Shown here in pieces: positions 12,894-21,561 of a stretch of 64,000 bases of DNA. The stretch lies in contig NZ_JAQNDM010000002.1 in assembly GCF_028368975.1 (NCBI RefSeq), forward strand, positions 1 through 64,000, in the 5' to 3' direction. The translations under genes and the position numbers were made by a program. The DNA is from Stigmatella ashevillena. Its GTDB lineage: Bacteria; Myxococcota; Myxococcia; Myxococcales; Myxococcaceae. The notes beneath the pieces were generated by a model, which did not search any database, was not told where the DNA came from, and saw nothing but the letters and a program-made list of their open reading frames with translations. Numbering within the stretch: the stretch's first letter is position 1; every line of letters begins with the position of its first letter.

Positions 12894-15656
12894 TTAGGGC
12901 GCCCAGGGCGAGACTACATTCCAGCTAACATCCGCGTTGTAGGAGGCGTTGCCGTTCCAGCCGCCGCCGCTTCCATCGGCGATCCACACCTCGGCCGAGT
13001 AGTGGCGCAGGTGGCGCCCCGGGTAGTTGATGGGCTCGAACGAGACGCCGATCCCGGCGAGCCCGGGCTGAGCACAGAAGGTGGCATCCTGGTCGAAGAG
13101 CGCCGAGCCATCCCGGGCGTTCTTCCGGACGCGATCGCTGGCGTGGCGCAGGTAGTGGCCGGGGAAGTTCCGGGACTCGAACGAGTAGCAGCTCGCGTCG
13201 GCCAGGCCGATCACGGTCTTGTAGGTCGCGTCCTGCTTGAGCGTCGCGCTGCTGTTGCCGTCCACCACCTCGGTGTAGGCCAGATCCGCGGAGTGGCGCA
13301 GGTAGCGGTTGGTGAAGCCCGGCGTCGTCACCTGGAGCGAGGCGTAGGCGTTCACCGTCAGGTCCACGCCGCTCTTCCACCAAGGAGAGGCCAGGGCCCA
13401 CGTGGCGTCTTGCCGGAAGCCCACGGTGTCCGCGAACGCGTCGACCCAGAGCTCGGCGCTCCGGTGGCGGAGGTAGAAGCCGGGCTTGTTCTTGGACTCC
13501 AGGGAGACGTTGCCCGAGCCATCGAGCGCCGCGCGGCCGCAGAAGGTGGCGTCCTGCGCGAAGGTGGCCGAGCCATCGTTCGCGTCCCGGCGGATGCGGA
13601 AGTTGAAGTGCCGCAGGTACTGGCCGGGGAAGTTGCGAGACTCGAAGGAGTAGCAGGCGGCATCCCCCAGGCCCGCGACGATCTTGAAGGTCGCGTCCTT
13701 CTTGAGGGTGCCCTCGCTCGCGGCGTTGATGGACGCGGTGGTGCCCAGCGCGTCGATGTGGCGCATGTAGCGGTCGGTCAGGCCCGGGGTCGCTACCTGG
13801 AACGAGCGGAATTGGTTGAGCGGCAGCGGGCCCTGGTTGTTGAGCTGCCGGGAGGCGGCGATCAGGCTGTCGTGGGCCGCGCGGACCTGCGCCACGTTCG
13901 GCTTCATGATGACCCGGTCATAGGTCAGCATGCCGTTGATCTCGTTCTCCACGTCGGTGATTTCCGTGTAGACCGCCGCGCTCAGGCCTGGGTTGGTCAT
14001 CAGGGACTGGCTGCGCTGCATGAGCCCCACGTAGCGGCTGGTCAGCGCCGCCGCATCGCTCATCATCTCGTAGCCGAAGCCGTTGCCGGGGCTCCACTCG
14101 TGCCCGGTCACCCGGAGGCCCAGGCCGCCGAACTCGCCCAGCACTGCGGCCCGCGTGGCCGAGGGCACCGGAGAGGCCGGTCCCACGTAGGTGTGCCAAT
14201 CGGCCACGTCGCCGTTGCCACCGTCCACCGCGCCACAGCAGTTGATGCCGCTCATGTTGTCGACGAGTCGGCTGGGATCCCAGCCCTTCACCAGGTTCGC
14301 CAGCCGGGCCTGATCGTACTGGCCCCAGCCCTCGTTCAGGACGACCCACAGGATGATCGATGGAGAGCTGCGGTGCTCGTCCACCATCTCGCGCATTTCC
14401 AGTTCGAACTGCGTCTTCGCCGCCGCCGTCGAGGGAGGCCGCTCCATGGAGGGCATGTCCTGCCAGACGAGGATGCCCAGCTTGTCGGCCCAGTAGAACC
14501 AGCGCTGGGGCTCGACCTTGATGTGCTTGCGGATGAGGTTGTAGCCCAGGTCCTTGTGTTTCTGGATGTCGAACTTGAGCGCCTCATCCGTGGGCGCGGT
14601 GTAGATGCCGTCCGGCCAGTAGCCTTGGTCCAGCGTGCCGATCTGGAAGACGAACTGGCCATTGAGCACCGGCCGCAGCGCGCCGCCCACGAGCTTCAGG
14701 CCGACGGACCGCATGCCGAAGTAGCTGGTGACCTGATCCACCGTGCTCGTCCCGCTCTTGAGCGCCACGCGCAAGTCATAGAGGAAGGGGCTCTCGGGGG
14801 ACCAGAGCTTGGGGTTGGGCACCGGAAGGCGCAGCTCGCTGCCCACGCTGCCGGTGATTTGGCCCACCTGGGTGCTGCCATTGAACGCGGCCACCTCGAC
14901 GGTTTGGCCCGCGATGCCCGCGCCCTGCACCGTCACCTTCAGCGCCTGCCCGGCCACGTCCGGCGTCATGTCCAGCCGAGTGATGCGCGCCGCGGGGGTC
15001 GGCTCCAGCCAGACCGTCTGCCAGATGCCCGAGGCCGCCGTGTACCAGATGCCGCCCGGGGCCAGGCGCTGCTTGCCGATCGGCTGGTTGCCATCGCTGG
15101 TGGGATCGTACACGCCGACGATCAGCTCGTTGGTGCCTCCGTTGAGGTTGCCGGTGATGTCGAAGCTGAAGCTGTCAAACCCGCCTTGGTGGACGCCGAC
15201 CCGCTGGCCGTTGACGTAGACCGTGGCCTCCCAGTCGACCGCGCCGAAGTTGAGCTGAACCCTCCGGCCACTCCAGCCCGAGGGCACTGTGAAGGTGCGG
15301 CGGTACCACATGCGCTCCTGGTGGCGCTGGATGCCCGAGAGGGCCGACTCGATGGGGAAGGGCACCAGCACGCTCTCGGACAGCGTCTGGTTGAAGGGGG
15401 GCGTCTGGCCCGCGGAGGCGTTGGCGAACTGCCACTCGCCGTTGAGGTTCTGCCAGTCGCTGCGCACCATTTGAGGGCGCGGGTACTCGGGCAGCGCGTT
15501 GCTGGGGGAGACCTGGGCGGTCCACGGCGTGGACAGCGGGGGCGTTTTGCGAATCCAGGCCGCCTCCGCGTTCACGGGCGGGAGCAGTCCGCACAGCAGG
15601 GGGAGCAACAACAGGGCGCTTCGGCCGCGTCTGGGGGATGTCTGGGAAGGGTGCAT
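12894..15656 (-). CDS. Secreted GH2-family glycoside hydrolase with two C-terminal AbfB domains
   Basis: Protein of 920 aa. A Sec signal peptide (RSALLLLPLLCGLLPPVNAEA, cleavage about residue 32) is followed by a GH2 sugar-binding jelly roll (WYRRTFTVP, VDWEATVYVNG), an immunoglobulin-like domain and the TIM barrel. The likely acid/base is Glu442 (WVVLNEGWGQ) and the nucleophile Glu508 (AVLGEFGGLG). Two AbfB-like (CBM42, arabinofuranose-binding) modules end the protein. The start at 15656 has AAGGAG 5 bases upstream. GH2 includes beta-galactosidases, glucuronidases and arabinosidases; the AbfB modules suggest plant or arabinan-type substrates. It is monocistronic and divergent from miaA. Confidence 0.88.
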   Translation of the reverse strand: MHPSQTSPRRGRSALLLLPLLCGLLPPVNAEAAWIRKTPPLSTPWTAQVSPSNALPEYPRPQMVRSDWQNLNGEWQFANASAGQTPPFNQTLSESVLVPFPIESALSGIQRHQERMWYRRTFTVPSGWSGRRVQLNFGAVDWEATVYVNGQRVGVHQGGFDSFSFDITGNLNGGTNELIVGVYDPTSDGNQPIGKQRLAPGGIWYTAASGIWQTVWLEPTPAARITRLDMTPDVAGQALKVTVQGAGIAGQTVEVAAFNGSTQVGQITGSVGSELRLPVPNPKLWSPESPFLYDLRVALKSGTSTVDQVTSYFGMRSVGLKLVGGALRPVLNGQFVFQIGTLDQGYWPDGIYTAPTDEALKFDIQKHKDLGYNLIRKHIKVEPQRWFYWADKLGILVWQDMPSMERPPSTAAAKTQFELEMREMVDEHRSSPSIILWVVLNEGWGQYDQARLANLVKGWDPSRLVDNMSGINCCGAVDGGNGDVADWHTYVGPASPVPSATRAAVLGEFGGLGLRVTGHEWSPGNGFGYEMMSDAAALTSRYVGLMQRSQSLMTNPGLSAAVYTEITDVENEINGMLTYDRVIMKPNVAQVRAAHDSLIAASRQLNNQGPLPLNQFRSFQVATPGLTDRYMRHIDALGTTASINAASEGTLKKDATFKIVAGLGDAACYSFESRNFPGQYLRHFNFRIRRDANDGSATFAQDATFCGRAALDGSGNVSLESKNKPGFYLRHRSAELWVDAFADTVGFRQDATWALASPWWKSGVDLTVNAYASLQVTTPGFTNRYLRHSADLAYTEVVDGNSSATLKQDATYKTVIGLADASCYSFESRNFPGHYLRHASDRVRKNARDGSALFDQDATFCAQPGLAGIGVSFEPINYPGRHLRHYSAEVWIADGSGGGWNGNASYNADVSWNVVSPWAP
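12897..13812 (-). repeat. Tandem duplicated AbfB module within the GH2 gene
   Basis: Two copies of about 145 residues encode near-identical motifs: first copy 13378-13812, second copy 12897-13350. Shared landmarks are TPG(L/F)T(D/N)RY(M/L)RH, TLK(K/Q)DAT(F/Y)K, CYSFESRNFPG, (F/V)R(I)RR/RKNARDGSA and QDATFC. The pattern of three sub-blocks per copy fits the beta-trefoil fold of AbfB. Confidence 0.8.
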
Positions 15657-15814
15657 GGCTTCTCCTTGAAATGCGGGCAAGGAGCATTCACCAGTTGATG
15701 GAGATTAGTCATGAATTTCATGAATTGCTGCGCTGCGCCAAGAGGGACGTGCGCGGCTGGCGACGGGAGGGGGAGGGTGGTAGGCCTTCTGTTCACCTTG
15801 GAGCCCCTCCTCCC

Positions 15815-16708
15815 GTGAAGCCCCTGCTCACCGTGATCGCGGGCCCGACGGCCTCGGGCAAGACGGCGCTGGCCGTGGAGCTGGCCCACCGCGCAGGCGG
15901 AGAGATCGTCAGCGCGGACTCGCAGCAGGTGTACCGCTTCTTCGACATCGGGACGGCCAAGCCTTCTCTAGAGGAGCGGGCCGCCGTGCCGCATCATCTG
16001 ATCTCGGTGGTGGAGCCCCCGGAGACGTTTTCGGCGGCGGAGTACCAGCGGCACGCGGACGCGGCCATCGCGGAGATTTCCGCGCGGGGTCGGCCGGTGT
16101 TTCTCGTGGGAGGCACGGGCCTGTACCTGCGCATCCTCCTGCATGGGGTGGTGGAGGCGCCCGGGGCGGACCCTGCGCTCCGGGCCTCCCTGGAAGCCCT
16201 GGCCGTCGCCGAGGGCCGCGAGGCCGTTCACCGGCAACTGGCCCAGGTGGATCCCGAGACGGCCGCGAAGCTGCCCGCGAACGATCTGGTCCGGATCATC
16301 CGCGCGCTGGAGATCCACGCTCGGACAGGGATTCCCGCCTCGGTCTGGCGCCGGGAGCACGCGTTCGCGCCGGACCGGTACCCGTTCCGTCTCTTTGTCC
16401 TGGACCCTCCGAGAGAGGCGCTCTACCGGGCCATCAACGCGCGCACCGAGGCCATGTTCGCCCGGGGGCTCGTCGAGGAGACCCGGGAACTGCTGGCCCG
16501 GGGCTACGCGGAGACCGCACCCATGCGGAGCGTGGGGTACGTGCAGGCCCGCGCCGTGGCCGAAGGGCGGATGAGCCGGGAGGAAGCCATCCAGGACACG
16601 GCGCAGGAGACGCGCCGGTATGCCAAGCGGCAGCTCACCTGGTTCCGGAAGGAACCCGGCGCGGTGCACGTGTCCCCTCCGTATGACGTGGCGCTCTGGG
16701 AGCGCTGA
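15815..16708 (+). CDS. miaA: tRNA dimethylallyltransferase
   Basis: Protein of 297 aa that prenylates A37 of tRNAs reading UNN codons. The P-loop GPTASGKTALAVELA is at about 8-22, followed by SADSQQVYRFFDIGTAKPS and FLVGGTGLYLRILLHG, all diagnostic of MiaA; the C-terminal RRYAKRQLTWFRKE is also characteristic. GTG 15815 is chosen over an upstream in-frame start at 15638 because the protein then begins at the family N-terminus (KPLLTVIAGPTASG) and GGAG lies 11 bases upstream. It is divergent from the GH2 gene and convergent with the FAD/receiver gene. Confidence 0.93.
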   Translation: MKPLLTVIAGPTASGKTALAVELAHRAGGEIVSADSQQVYRFFDIGTAKPSLEERAAVPHHLISVVEPPETFSAAEYQRHADAAIAEISARGRPVFLVGGTGLYLRILLHGVVEAPGADPALRASLEALAVAEGREAVHRQLAQVDPETAAKLPANDLVRIIRALEIHARTGIPASVWRREHAFAPDRYPFRLFVLDPPREALYRAINARTEAMFARGLVEETRELLARGYAETAPMRSVGYVQARAVAEGRMSREEAIQDTAQETRRYAKRQLTWFRKEPGAVHVSPPYDVALWER

Positions 16709-16710
16709 GC

Positions 16711-16733
16711 CCTGAGGCCCCGTCAGCCTCAGG
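16711..16733 (+). terminator. Hairpin between convergent genes, probable bidirectional terminator
   Basis: CCTGAGGC (16711-16718) and GCCTCAGG (16726-16733) form an 8-bp stem with a 7-base loop immediately after the miaA stop. The right arm overlaps the stop codon of the convergent FAD/receiver gene (16729-16731). No clear T-run follows, so the terminator role is provisional. Confidence 0.4.
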
Positions 16734-18459
16734 AGGCGTAGCGATCCGACTCGAGGTCCAACGGTCCCACCGCCGGGCGCAAGGGCGCGGAACGAGGAGC
16801 CTCCGGGGTTTCGCCCAGCAGGGCCTGCATCAGCCGCTGGGGCTCCACGGGCTTCGGCAAGAAGGCCTCCGCTCCCGCGTCGAGGGCACCCTGCTGCACG
16901 TGAGGCCGGTTCAGGCCGCTCATGACGATGACCCGCGTGTTCCGCGTCAACGGGTGCTTCTTGAGCCCCTCGCACAGCCGCAACCCATCCACCCAGTGCA
17001 GCACCACATCCAAGAGGATGGCCGTGGGAGGGCGGCGGGCCACGGCGCAGAACAGTGCCAGCTCGTCCGCGAAGGCCACCACCGTGGCGCCCGTGGACTC
17101 CAGGAGCTGGGTCATCGCCTCGCGGGCATCCGCGTCATCATCCACCACATAATAGAGGTCCGGCTCCAGCGTGGGCATGGCCGTCGGTACGGGCTCCACC
17201 GTGGTTCGCAGCCACGAGCCCACCACCTCGCGCATGCCCGCCCAGCGCGCGGAGGCCAGCAGCGCCAGCGGGGTGGGCGAAGCCAGTCCGAGCACGCCAC
17301 CGCTGTAGACGCCCCCCACGGCCCCTCGCTTCCGAGCGGCCAGGAACGCCTCGGGTGCCCGGCGTCCCGCCCGCCGCAGCCAGGCGATGGAGCGGGCTCC
17401 GGCCGCCGAGTCCTCCAGCATCTCCGAGAGCCCGTGGCGGATGTACCGGCGCTCCAGCGAGGCGGGAGACAGTCCACCATCGAGGAGACCCACCGCCGCG
17501 CGGCTGCACGTTGCCAGCGTCTCGGACAGGCCTATCTGCAAGGGGTGTCCGAGCGCCGCCGCGCCCACGGCGATCTGCCCTGGCGCCACCAGCGTGCGGC
17601 CAGGCCCGAAGGGCAGGCGCGTCGTCTCCAGGCAGGACAGCTCGAAGCCCTCCTCCAGCAGACCGTCGCGTGCCGCCATCATCAGGGCCTGGCACAGATC
17701 CGCCGGAGTCACCGCGGGGCCGAACGCGAGCACGTAGACCGAGTGGGCGCTGGGCAGGAGGAACAGGCCATCAATGGTGGGCAGGGGGGAGATCCACAGC
17801 CTCGCCAGCGGGGCCAAGGTCAACCGGGAGGCGCTCTGCCGCACGCGGGCGTGGACGGCGGCCACCGAAGGGGCGGGCTGGAACCCCGGGAAGAAGTTCT
17901 CACCGAGCGAGGTGCCTGCCCCGGCGGCCAGCGCCACCGCGTGGAACCGCTCGCCGCTGCCCTGGGCGCGCACCACCAGCGAGCCGCTGCCGCGCACCGC
18001 GGCGGGGGCATCCGGCGAAGGGGGCTGGTTCTCCACACGGTCGACGCGGCGAGAGATGAACTGGGCCCCTTGCGCCGTCGCGGCGGTGGAGAGCGCTTCG
18101 CGCACCACCGCCATGCCTCCGGGCCCATGGGGCCAGCTGTCCACCACCCACAGGCCGCCCGGAGGCGCTGGCAGCAGCTCGCGCCGGCCCTGGGAGAGCA
18201 CCTCCACGCCTCGAAGCTCGTGCACGCGCCAGTCCAGGGGAACGCGGCACCCCAGCGCCGCCAGACGGGAGCGGCACTCGGGGGTCAGCACCACGGGCGG
18301 GGGCACGCTGTCCGGCTCACCCTGCGAGTAGACGCGCACATCCAGCGAGATGCCGCGCGCCCGGCCATTGAACAGAAGCGATGCGGCCAGTCCCGCGCCC
18401 GCGATGCCCCCGCCCACGACAGCCACCCTCGAACCGCTGACCAGCCTGTCTGCGCTCAT
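16729..18459 (-). CDS. FAD-dependent oxidoreductase fused to a C-terminal response-regulator receiver
   Basis: Protein of 576 aa in one uninterrupted frame. Residues about 8-430 form an FAD/NAD(P)-binding Rossmann protein: VAVVGGGIAGAGLAASLL is the dinucleotide-binding GxGxxG, and a second region (PGQIAVGAAALGHPLQIGLSE) resembles the 'GD' FAD-contact motif of monooxygenase/geranylgeranyl-reductase-like flavoproteins, although the Asp is not obvious. Residues about 435-550 form a receiver: VVDDDAD acidic pocket, Asp484 phosphoacceptor in LLDVVLH, Ser in VIVMSGL and Lys in FLPKPVE. It lies 47 bases downstream of a receiver-GGDEF gene on the same strand, probably in one operon. The combination is unusual; the flavin substrate is unknown. 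Confidence 0.8.
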   Translation of the reverse strand: MSADRLVSGSRVAVVGGGIAGAGLAASLLFNGRARGISLDVRVYSQGEPDSVPPPVVLTPECRSRLAALGCRVPLDWRVHELRGVEVLSQGRRELLPAPPGGLWVVDSWPHGPGGMAVVREALSTAATAQGAQFISRRVDRVENQPPSPDAPAAVRGSGSLVVRAQGSGERFHAVALAAGAGTSLGENFFPGFQPAPSVAAVHARVRQSASRLTLAPLARLWISPLPTIDGLFLLPSAHSVYVLAFGPAVTPADLCQALMMAARDGLLEEGFELSCLETTRLPFGPGRTLVAPGQIAVGAAALGHPLQIGLSETLATCSRAAVGLLDGGLSPASLERRYIRHGLSEMLEDSAAGARSIAWLRRAGRRAPEAFLAARKRGAVGGVYSGGVLGLASPTPLALLASARWAGMREVVGSWLRTTVEPVPTAMPTLEPDLYYVVDDDADAREAMTQLLESTGATVVAFADELALFCAVARRPPTAILLDVVLHWVDGLRLCEGLKKHPLTRNTRVIVMSGLNRPHVQQGALDAGAEAFLPKPVEPQRLMQALLGETPEAPRSAPLRPAVGPLDLESDRYAS

Positions 18460-18506
18460 CCCCGCCCTCGCTCGCCCTGTGGCCCACTGCCGCCTCGTGA
18501 AGTGCT

Positions 18507-19475
18507 TCAGTGCCGCTGGGCCACCGGGGGAGGGTGGGGGTCCGCGGCGGTGGCACTGTGCACCACCACCCGGTCCCGGCCCTCGCGCTTGGCCACATAA
18601 AGTGCCGCGTCCGCCGCCTTCATCAACGCGTCCGTGTTCTCGCGCGGCGCCTCCGGCGAATGATCCGCGATGCCCACGCTCACGCTCAGCCCGAAGGGGG
18701 CCGGCCGACCGTCGCTGCGCTGGACGATGACGTTGCGCAGCCCGGCCCGGATGCGCTCGGCGAAGGCCGCCGCCTCGATCGCCGTCTGGTGGGGCAGCAG
18801 CGCCACGAATTCGTCCCCGCCGAAGCGCGCCGCGAAGTCCGACTCGCGCAGGTTGTTCTTCAGGTGCGTGGAGAGCGCCAGGATGGCGCGGTTGCCCACA
18901 TCGTGGCCCATCCCATCATTGATGGCCTTGAGGTGATCCAGGTCGATGACGACCACGGACAGAGGGTACTGGTAGCGCTGCGCGCGCCGGAACTCCTCCT
19001 CCATGCGCAGCGTCAGCGAGCGGAAGTTCGCCAGGCCGGTGAGCCCATCGGTCTGGGCCAGCACCCGGAGCCGGTGCTGCTGCTCGCTCTGGCGCAGGGC
19101 CCGGTCGATGCGCGCCAGCAACTCCCGGGCGCTGGCTGGCTTGTGAATGAAGTCCACGGCTCCCATTTCCAGGCACCGCTCCAGTGTGGCCTCGTCGGCG
19201 TCTCCCGTAAGGAAGATGACCGGCACACAGTCGGTGCGCACGTCGCCCTGGAGGGTCTCCAGCACCGCCAGCCCATCCCCGCTGGGCAGGAAGCGATCCA
19301 GGAGGATGAGATCCGGGCAGTGCTCACGTGCCAGCTCCACGCCCACGTCCGCGTCGCTCGCGGTCAGCACCGCGAAGCGCGCCACCAGCAAATCTGAGAG
19401 GCTTTCCTGCACACCCTCGTCGTCCTCGATGATGAGGACAAGGGGCTGCTCACTGCCCCGGCCGCGCCGTTCCAT
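18507..19475 (-). CDS. Response regulator with GGDEF diguanylate cyclase output
   Basis: Protein of 322 aa. The receiver is at about 10-125: LVLIIEDDEG acidic pocket, Asp60 in LILLDRFLPSGDG, Thr in FLTGD and Lys in FIHKP. A GGDEF domain follows (about 150-300) with TDGLTGLANFR, the intact active site RFGGDEFVALLP, and an RxxD allosteric I-site (RESD) exactly five residues before GGDEF. It should therefore be an active, product-inhibited cyclic di-GMP synthase controlled by phosphorylation. No cognate kinase is adjacent. It precedes the FAD/receiver fusion in the same direction. The PilZ protein at 2913-3254 could be one reader of its product. Confidence 0.92.
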   Translation of the reverse strand: MERRGRGSEQPLVLIIEDDEGVQESLSDLLVARFAVLTASDADVGVELAREHCPDLILLDRFLPSGDGLAVLETLQGDVRTDCVPVIFLTGDADEATLERCLEMGAVDFIHKPASARELLARIDRALRQSEQQHRLRVLAQTDGLTGLANFRSLTLRMEEEFRRAQRYQYPLSVVVIDLDHLKAINDGMGHDVGNRAILALSTHLKNNLRESDFAARFGGDEFVALLPHQTAIEAAAFAERIRAGLRNVIVQRSDGRPAPFGLSVSVGIADHSPEAPRENTDALMKAADAALYVAKREGRDRVVVHSATAADPHPPPVAQRH

Positions 19476-19873
19476 TCAACGCTCCGCTGCGCATGCCTGC
19501 CTTGTGGCAGGCCGAAGATCTCGAGCGCTACGCCCTGTGGAGTGCTCTCGCCGCCCTGGCGCCCCACGCGCCCCCGCCGCCACCCTGTCCACCCGCACCC
19601 GTCGACCTCCGCAACCTTCACCCGAGACCCCCGGCTGCCAAGCCCGTCTGTCTCTTTGCCCCGATCTTTCGTGACCGGCGGCTTGATGAACGGAGAATGG
19701 AGCAAGCTGCGTGCCCCCGATAAAATCCCAGGGGTTGGAGTCATTTCGGGGAGTTGCGCGACCCGAACCACGCCAGGGTCTTACCCTGGCTGGAAGAGGT
19801 TCCAGCGCATGAAGTCGTGAGCCGGTAGGAATTCCCGTATTGGGGCCAACGGATCACCACCTCCCGTCCACTA
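19476..19873. other. Intergenic region with an 8-bp perfect hairpin
   Basis: No convincing gene was seen in these 398 bases. GCCAGGGT (19772-19779) and ACCCTGGC (19783-19790) form a tight hairpin with a 3-base loop but no T-run on either strand. The stretch probably holds the upstream region of the diguanylate cyclase gene and the 3' region of the TPR gene on the same strand. Confidence 0.4.
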
Positions 19874-20620
19874 CTAACGTCGAGTAGTGAACTGAACCCG
19901 CCGTCCACCGCCTCCGCCGAGCGTCGGCATGGGGGGCGTCTCCAGGCCGAACTGCCACCAGGTGGGCTCGTAGGGCTTCATCTTGAGACGCTTGTCATTC
20001 TGGAGCTGGGTGAGGCTGGACTTGAGCTTCTCGTCGGAGGGGTTGGTCTCCACACCCCGGGCGAGCACCCGCAGGGCCTTGTCCTTCTCCTTGATCTGCA
20101 GGAGACACCAGGCGTAGGCCGCCCACATGAGGGACTCTTTCTTACCGGCCTTCACGGCGGCCTCGAAAGCGGACTCCATGGCGGAGTAGTCCTTGCGCTG
20201 GTAGTGCAGGGCGCCCTCCATGGCCTTGGCCATGTAGTTGCGCGCGCTGGCCTGGGCGAAGTGCTTCCGGGCGCCTTCCAGGTCCTTGGCCATGTACTTG
20301 AGCATGCCGATCTGGGCGTGCAGCTCCGGGCCGACCATGATCTGCCACTTCTCGTAGACGAGCCCCTGCTCCAGGGTTTTCACGGCCCGCTCCACGCGTT
20401 GGAGGGCCTCCTTCTGGGTTGCGGGCTGCCCCTGGAACTCCTTTTGAACAGATTCCATGAGGGCCTGGATGCGCTGGGCCACCCGGCGTGCCAGGAGGAT
20501 GAAGGTACCAATGAAGGCCAGGACGCCTGGGACGAGGCCGGCCCAGAGGGGAAACCCGGCCAATTTAACGCCCAGTGCGATCGCGATGCCGACGCCCAGG
20601 GAAATAAGGAGGTTGTACAT
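19874..20620 (-). CDS. Membrane-anchored TPR-like hypothetical protein
   Basis: Protein of 248 aa. Two close hydrophobic helices (about 3-24 and 26-44: ISLGVGIAIALGVKLAGFP, LWAGLVPGVLAFIGTFILL) anchor it in the inner membrane. The remainder is helical with TPR-like repeats (LHAQIGMLKYMAKDLEGARK, AMEGALHYQRKDYSAMESAF, AAYAWCLLQIKEKDKALRVL). The C-terminus is Gly-rich (TLGGGGGRRVQF). It is likely a conserved myxobacterial scaffold or assembly protein; I do not recognise a named family. It is divergent from the tRNA-Leu gene. Confidence 0.7.
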   Translation of the reverse strand: MYNLLISLGVGIAIALGVKLAGFPLWAGLVPGVLAFIGTFILLARRVAQRIQALMESVQKEFQGQPATQKEALQRVERAVKTLEQGLVYEKWQIMVGPELHAQIGMLKYMAKDLEGARKHFAQASARNYMAKAMEGALHYQRKDYSAMESAFEAAVKAGKKESLMWAAYAWCLLQIKEKDKALRVLARGVETNPSDEKLKSSLTQLQNDKRLKMKPYEPTWWQFGLETPPMPTLGGGGGRRVQFTTRR

Positions 20621-20802: not shown

Positions 20803-20889
20803 TTCACCTACCCAGTCACATGTGTCATGCAGCCACCGGGGCGGGTTTGGGATGAACAGCCTCCGGCGTGCCTGGCGAGAGGTGCTCCC

Positions 20890-21561
20890 ATGAAGGTGCT
20901 GCTGGTCGAGGATGACCCGAGCTTGCGCGAAGGGATGGGCGAGCTGCTGTCCGAGCTGGCCGAGGTGCGCATGGTGGGGCAGGTGGCGGAAGCCCTGGCG
21001 GCCCTGAACGAGGAGCGCTTCGAGCTGGTGCTGACGGATCTGCACATCTCGGGCAATGCGCAGGGGGGCCGCGCCATCGTGGAGGCCGCTCGGCAGCGGC
21101 TTCAGCCGGTGGCCATCGTCAGCGCGGCGGCCGCCGAGGAGATGACGAAGCTGCTGCGCCCCTTCCAAGCGGACGCGATATTGAGCAAGCCCTTTCAGCT
21201 CGAGGACATCCTGGTGCTCGTCGAGCGCTTCCTGGCCCTGCGCAGCCAGGCGGAGCAGCTGGCGAAGGAGCCCCCTCCGGCCGGATCGGCTTGGGCCGAG
21301 GCGTCTCCGGGCGTTCAGGTGGCGCCCGCCCAACCGGCGCAGGCCCCGGAGGGACCCACCTGGGTCCGGATGCAGGCGGGAGCCAGCCACTCCTGGGCGC
21401 CTCGCCTGGGCGGCGAGGGGATCCTGCTCATCGATGGAGACGTCGAGGCGGGGGGATCGCGCCGGCCGGCCCCTCATTACTTCTTCCTGTCTGCTGGGGA
21501 GCCCTGTGAGGTGCGCACGGGGGCAGGGTGTCTGGCGGTCTCGCTGGCGTTGAGCCGGTGA
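20890..21561 (+). CDS. Response regulator with short C-terminal domain of unknown fold
   Basis: Protein of 223 aa. The receiver occupies about 1-118: MKVLLVEDDPSLREGMGELL, Asp50 phosphoacceptor in LVLTDLHISG, and Lys in ILSKPFQLED. A Pro/Ala-rich linker leads to a C-terminal segment (about 160-223: MQAGASHSWAPRLGGEGILL, FFLSAGEPCEVRTGAGCLAV) that reads like beta strands, possibly cupin-like. No DNA-binding output is apparent. ATG 20890 gives the standard receiver N-terminus; an earlier start at 20827 would overlap the tRNA flank. It lies 20 bases before the RNA methyltransferase gene and is probably co-transcribed with it. Confidence 0.8.
   Translation: MKVLLVEDDPSLREGMGELLSELAEVRMVGQVAEALAALNEERFELVLTDLHISGNAQGGRAIVEAARQRLQPVAIVSAAAAEEMTKLLRPFQADAILSKPFQLEDILVLVERFLALRSQAEQLAKEPPPAGSAWAEASPGVQVAPAQPAQAPEGPTWVRMQAGASHSWAPRLGGEGILLIDGDVEAGGSRRPAPHYFFLSAGEPCEVRTGAGCLAVSLALSR

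Follow-up and report, generated by a model that had tools for sequence, protein, structure and literature searches.

What does the protein encoded beside a diguanylate cyclase gene in Stigmatella ashevillena do? In the first 64,000 nucleotides of contig NZ_JAQNDM010000002.1 (the window), a receiver-GGDEF gene is followed on the same strand by a gene whose product joins a flavoprotein-like N-terminal domain to a C-terminal response-regulator receiver (Table 1). A preliminary description, made from the DNA sequence, took the N-terminal part for a complete FAD-binding oxidoreductase, and suggested that the pair may couple a redox or flavin signal to cyclic di-GMP or to phosphotransfer.

Table 1. 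Features of the locus, in positions of the window.
Feature	Positions	Strand	Basis or remark
Convergent IPP transferase (MiaA-like) gene	15836..16708 (stretch searched)	+	Neighbour in families f1 and f2; outside the system
Fusion gene, 576 aa, matches M. xanthus MXAN_3734: N-terminal GGR/PHBH-fold domain and C-terminal receiver	16729..18459	-	
C-terminal receiver, residues 437-548	16816..17151	-	Pfam and family alignment
Asp484 codon, predicted phosphoacceptor	17008..17010	-	Invariant in 24/24 aligned members
N-terminal flavoprotein-like domain, residues 1-418	17206..18459	-	AlphaFold2 model; residues 8-410 aligned to 3oz2
Position of the "GD" FAD motif, residues 299-300, GA in the window	17560..17565	-	Alignment and paralogue control
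Rossmann GxGxxG, residues 16-21, kept	18397..18414	-	24-member alignment
47-bp gap separating the two genes	18460..18506	.	27-56 bp in 40/40 relatives measured
Receiver-GGDEF protein, 322 aa, DmxB-like: D60, R210ESD, G219GDEF	18507..19475	-	
TPR protein upstream of dmxB	19874..20620	-	Also beside dmxB in three genomes without the fusion

The pair matches the dmxB/MXAN_3734 locus of Myxococcus xanthus, as judged from residue numbering, architecture, and gene order, on which the orthology rests. Pfam finds Response_reg (E = 2.7e-22) and GGDEF (E = 2.2e-40) in the upstream protein, which had been described, correctly, as a receiver-diguanylate cyclase with intact GGDEF and I-site motifs, encoded 47 bases away. 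The M. xanthus DmxB (MXAN_3735) has 319 amino acids, with D60, R210ESD, and G219GDEF (available text of PMC4877007), and these residue numbers are identical in the window protein. MXAN_3734 is given as a protein of 577 amino acids whose C-terminal receiver is its only known domain, and the two genes form a two-gene operon by RNA-seq (both from the available text of PMC8844925); in the window too, the receiver-GGDEF gene is followed by a gene for a protein of about this length (576 amino acids) with a C-terminal receiver. What we add is a fold and an altered flavin site for the N-terminal part, which is not named in the available text of the literature that mentions MXAN_3734. We found no further paper that joins Stigmatella aurantiaca and DmxB. 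According to the available text of PMC4877007, DmxB makes the rise in c-di-GMP that is needed for fruiting-body formation in M. xanthus; DmxB with D60N is functional, so its receiver need not be phosphorylated; and deletion of MXAN_3734 left development unaffected in the conditions tested.

The fusion is a single ORF (16729-18459, minus strand) whose product begins MSADRLVSGSRVAVVGGGIAGAGL, which confirms that one protein joins the N-terminal domain to a receiver. A sequencing error is ruled out as its origin: full-length matches without internal stops occur in many genomes, and the fusion is not confined to this one. Pfam's Response_reg matches residues 438-547 (E = 1e-19). The N-terminal part scored 23 bits against Pfam's DAO, under the cut-off of 27.9, and its best NCBIfam match had E = 0.018; no enzyme family from Pfam or NCBIfam matched it over its own cut-off. 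Among the 150 of 231 first-look candidates from the same genome (10.95 Mb) that were scored, there was no second full-length copy, and the other 80 matches listed from this genome all start at fusion residue 378 or later, which is the receiver part.

To assign a fold to the N-terminal domain, we used AlphaFold2 with the window protein and 16 relatives (17 sequences) as input. The best model had a pLDDT of 80.5 and a pTM of 0.67 (the other four models: 65-73). By Foldseek and VIA-align, model residues 8-410 have the geranylgeranyl-reductase (GGR)/PHBH flavoprotein fold. Against PDB 3oz2, the geranylgeranyl reductase-like Ta0516, the model had Z = 29.3 with 352 aligned residues, an rmsd of 3.4, and 15% identity; further matches with Z of 25-28 were flavin halogenases (about 26-28), an EtfABCX flavoprotein, and GGR (25-26). 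The fold assignment comes solely from the model, because a phmmer search of the PDB with the N-terminal 437 residues gave nothing up to E = 10. As modelled, the N-terminal 418 residues or so have the overall GGR/PHBH fold, and the predicted fold is complete. The domain resembles 3oz2 in its whole-domain fold and in GxGxxG, but the fusion family lacks a conserved Asp in the GD motif and a conserved acidic residue after beta-2, and it has a receiver attached.

These two positions matter for whether the domain is an enzyme. In GGR/PHBH-fold enzymes, the Asp of the GD motif contacts the FAD ribityl, and the acidic residue after beta-2 is another canonical FAD-contacting position. We aligned 24 of the at least 79 known members of the fusion family (G012, G036, G045, and G047 were omitted, being cut or of unclear start; 40 further loci served for synteny only). 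The glycines of GxGxxG are kept (G16 and G18 in 24/24, G21 in 23/24, and all three in 23/24). The Asp of the GD motif is present in just one member (L058); two members, which are the two rows from family f9, have Glu instead (GE for GD), and the remaining 21 have neither. Of the 24, 10 have the acidic residue after beta-2. In the window, the two positions are Ala and Ser. As a control, we took 10 loci from the same genome that match the GGR model TIGR02032 with E ≤ 1e-10 (none is over that model's own cut-off), and all 10 have GDA(A/S) as well as the acidic residue. Both features are also present in all four relatives found outside the Myxococcota (two from Acidobacteria and two from Chloroflexi).

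The relaxation of two canonical FAD contacts in this family makes it unlikely that the N-terminal domain is an ordinary FAD enzyme. Because GxGxxG is retained and the f9 proteins have GE, the domain may still bind FAD or another dinucleotide. Going by these residues, a phosphorylatable, degenerate flavoprotein-like partner seems likelier than a complete flavin oxidoreductase. To call this part a complete FAD-binding oxidoreductase was thus an overstatement, given the sub-threshold DAO score and the absent GD Asp, even though the predicted fold is complete; with these FAD contacts relaxed, the redox or flavin signal is likewise unsupported.

The relatives from outside the Myxococcota (L080, L081, L084, and L089) are proteins of about 870 amino acids whose GD-bearing N-terminal half contains CxxC (GCNMCAG or GCKGCAG). 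We scanned the second half of two of them: it is GG-reductase-like in L080 and NDH2-like in L084.

The receiver, on the other hand, is intact, and it is better conserved than the N-terminal domain: its identity to the window protein is the higher of the two in all 23 comparisons. D440-D442, D484, S514, and K536 are present in the window, as had been noted for Asp484, Ser, and Lys. Across the alignment, Asp441, Asp442, Asp484, and Lys536 are kept in 24/24; 23 members have Asp at position 440 and one has Glu, and 23 have Ser at position 514 and one has Thr. All 24 members therefore have the acidic pair, the phosphoacceptor Asp, the Ser/Thr, and the Lys of a response regulator, and the concern that relatives might not conserve the acidic pocket can be set aside. 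The best match of the family profile to a solved structure is PleD, at E = 3.7e-31 over two stretches, a score that is raised because both receivers of PleD add to it. PleD is a receiver-GGDEF protein like the product of the fusion's partner gene, but it carries receivers and GGDEF in one chain, whereas here the extra receiver is in a separate protein.

How widespread is the fusion, and does it stay with dmxB? A search of 195 Myxococcota genomes with the N-terminal 437 residues gave matches in 77 (E ≤ 1e-6), all from one order (families f1, f2, f3, f6, and f9). Two more genomes (G045 and G051) miss this cut-off yet carry the fusion according to other searches, for 79 in all. In at least nine named records from Myxococcus, Pyxidicoccus, Corallococcus, Archangium, and Hyalangium, the fusion is present at full or nearly full length, with identities of 73-82%, and one relative of the window protein is 96% identical. 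L076 (BNCN01000013.1), which is titled Comamonas sp. KCTC 72670, also carries a DmxB-like gene and a fusion of 77% identity; the record name is probably wrong.

We examined the neighbourhoods of the fusion in 68 of the 79 genomes (the window, 20 loci, 7 genomes, and 40 further loci). In 65 of these, the gene immediately upstream is DmxB-like and has the same orientation: the window, 18 of the 20, 5 of the 7, all 40 further loci, and G045, where a contig end holds dmxB together with the beginning of the fusion. The exceptions are G036, G043, and G048, all from family f3, which have no DmxB-like gene at E ≤ 1e-40 (these genomes are 89-96% complete). In G036, the fusion comes after the counterpart of the TPR gene that precedes dmxB in the window, and nothing DmxB-like is matched in between. 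Nine ORFs near the fusion in family f3 gave no signalling domain; they match SMC, RecA, RtcB, TPR, or TerB, or nothing. Conversely, dmxB is found without the fusion in G038 and G044 (f5) and in G046 (f7), where the TPR-dmxB order is kept, and one of the DmxB-like genes of G051, a second copy, has no fusion next to it. In L062-L064, the dmxB-fusion pair is kept, and no other gene from the window's neighbourhood was found next to it. A tree of 19 DmxB-like proteins, whose deep forks are weakly placed, has three changes in the fusion/dmxB association (2-4 in bootstrap trees).

Because of the synteny in 65 of 68 genomes, and because each gene occurs alone in some families, we consider the pair to be strongly linked but not obligate. 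The preliminary description had derived a link between the two genes from their adjacency and had called for a tabulation of neighbours among homologues. With the fusion in many genomes, this conserved order, and the M. xanthus operon (PMC8844925, available text), the link is stronger than was supposed; its proposed coupling to a redox or flavin signal is the part that is unsupported.

We propose, with about even confidence, that this is a dmxB operon whose second gene encodes a non-redox, phosphorylation-controlled, co-expressed signalling partner that has lost its FAD contacts. A GGR/PHBH flavoprotein fold would have lost the canonical FAD contacts and would be followed by a phosphorylatable receiver; an unlinked kinase would phosphorylate Asp484; this would modify ligand or protein binding by the N-terminal domain; and the altered binding would conditionally tune DmxB or the same developmental pathway. 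We infer the loss of redox function, the phosphorylation, the ligand, the target, and the action on the DmxB pathway. Tight coupling is weakened by the lack of a developmental effect when MXAN_3734 is deleted and by the occurrence of each gene alone (three f3 genomes have the fusion but no dmxB, and three from f5 and f7 have dmxB but no fusion). A more specific version, which we offer as a speculation and consider unlikely, is that a GGR-type pseudo-flavoenzyme lost its FAD chemistry and acquired a receiver, and that several families of one myxobacterial order retained it next to the developmental diguanylate cyclase, where it would be a phosphorylation-controlled sensor of a metabolite (such as an isoprenoid, a quinone, or a nucleotide) that tunes DmxB or its dimerisation in trans via a PleD-like receiver.

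Three other explanations should be weighed against a non-redox signalling partner. The protein might be a working GGR/PHBH-fold flavoenzyme, either a reductase or a monooxygenase, that is gated by its phosphorylated receiver in the manner of response regulators with enzymatic outputs. The complete predicted fold, the retained GxGxxG, and the presence of the domain in 77 of the 195 genomes of the phylum would fit, but the GD Asp is missing from 23 of 24 members and the acidic residue after beta-2 from 14 of 24, while the paralogues keep both in 10/10, and no enzyme family matches the N-terminal part over its cut-off. We think that this is unlikely. Alternatively, as the preliminary description had it, the protein might sense flavin or redox state and feed this to DmxB, thereby setting c-di-GMP. 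Such a sensor would be consistent with the operon and the synteny, and c-di-GMP enzymes do sense flavin, though via PAS, LOV, or BLUF domains (PMC8846402, available text). However, the FAD site is altered, three genomes from two families keep dmxB but have no fusion, and DmxB is essential for development while MXAN_3734 can be deleted without a developmental phenotype (PMC4877007, available text), which makes a flavin or redox sensor quite improbable in our view.

That same deletion result would be expected if the fusion were a passenger that is co-transcribed with dmxB and acts in an unrelated pathway. The families in which each gene is found without the other, and the nine ORFs around the fusion in family f3 that gave no signalling domain, also point this way. 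The short gap and shared orientation in 65 of 68 genomes speak against a passenger, as does the pair's persistence in L062-L064 where the other neighbours of the window were not found, and we hold it to be rather unlikely. The fusion bears on how DmxB is regulated: the known controls are transcription and feedback at the I-site, and a conserved, co-transcribed response regulator is a concrete candidate for a tuner. A flavoprotein fold with changed flavin residues also points to specific assays, namely of flavin content, of nucleotide or lipid ligands, of binding to DmxB, and of D484.

Thioredoxin reductase belongs to another flavoprotein family, and receivers have been joined to it as well. 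Response regulators with a receiver and a thioredoxin reductase were already described, in Mycobacterium-like form, in the available text of PMC5847659, and they share with our protein the joining of a receiver to a flavin-enzyme fold in one chain. An oxidoreductase output on a receiver is thus not without precedent, and the claim of rarity was partly right. No title among the literature matches listed concerns a GGR/PHBH-receiver protein, and FAD, flavin, and oxidoreductase are absent from the text of PMC4558063. Receiver-enzyme fusions are known, as is the DmxB/MXAN_3734 pair; what is new is the GGR/PHBH fold with altered flavin residues ahead of a C-terminal receiver, that is, the fold and the changed flavin site of the MXAN_3734-type N-terminal domain.

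We also looked at the leader of dmxB. An inverted repeat, CCTGCC...GGCAGG, lies at 19495-19512, shortly upstream of the dmxB start, and is present in 8 of 12 aligned upstream regions including the window's. We do not claim a structured RNA element at this repeat, as the 81-nt fold (z = -0.64) is no stronger than those of shuffled sequences. Nor do we claim an operator for MrpC: we scanned 12 upstream regions of 430 bp (the window and 11 relatives) with a palindrome of 10 specified bases, and the best site upstream of the window's dmxB has 4 mismatches in these.

Among the other neighbours, the gene at 12894-15680 encodes a GH2-type glycosidase of 928 amino acids with C-terminal AbfB matches, and it is present in 2 of 20 neighbourhoods. 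A receiver protein with no other Pfam domain is encoded at 20827-21561, on the opposite strand, and is present in 13 of 20 neighbourhoods at 51-82% identity. A gene for a receiver-sigma54 activator is convergent and follows dmxB in f5 and f7 (L112-L114), and it lies beyond the fusion in f6 (L061 and L065). In L112-L114 and L061, dmxB has the TPR gene as a neighbour.
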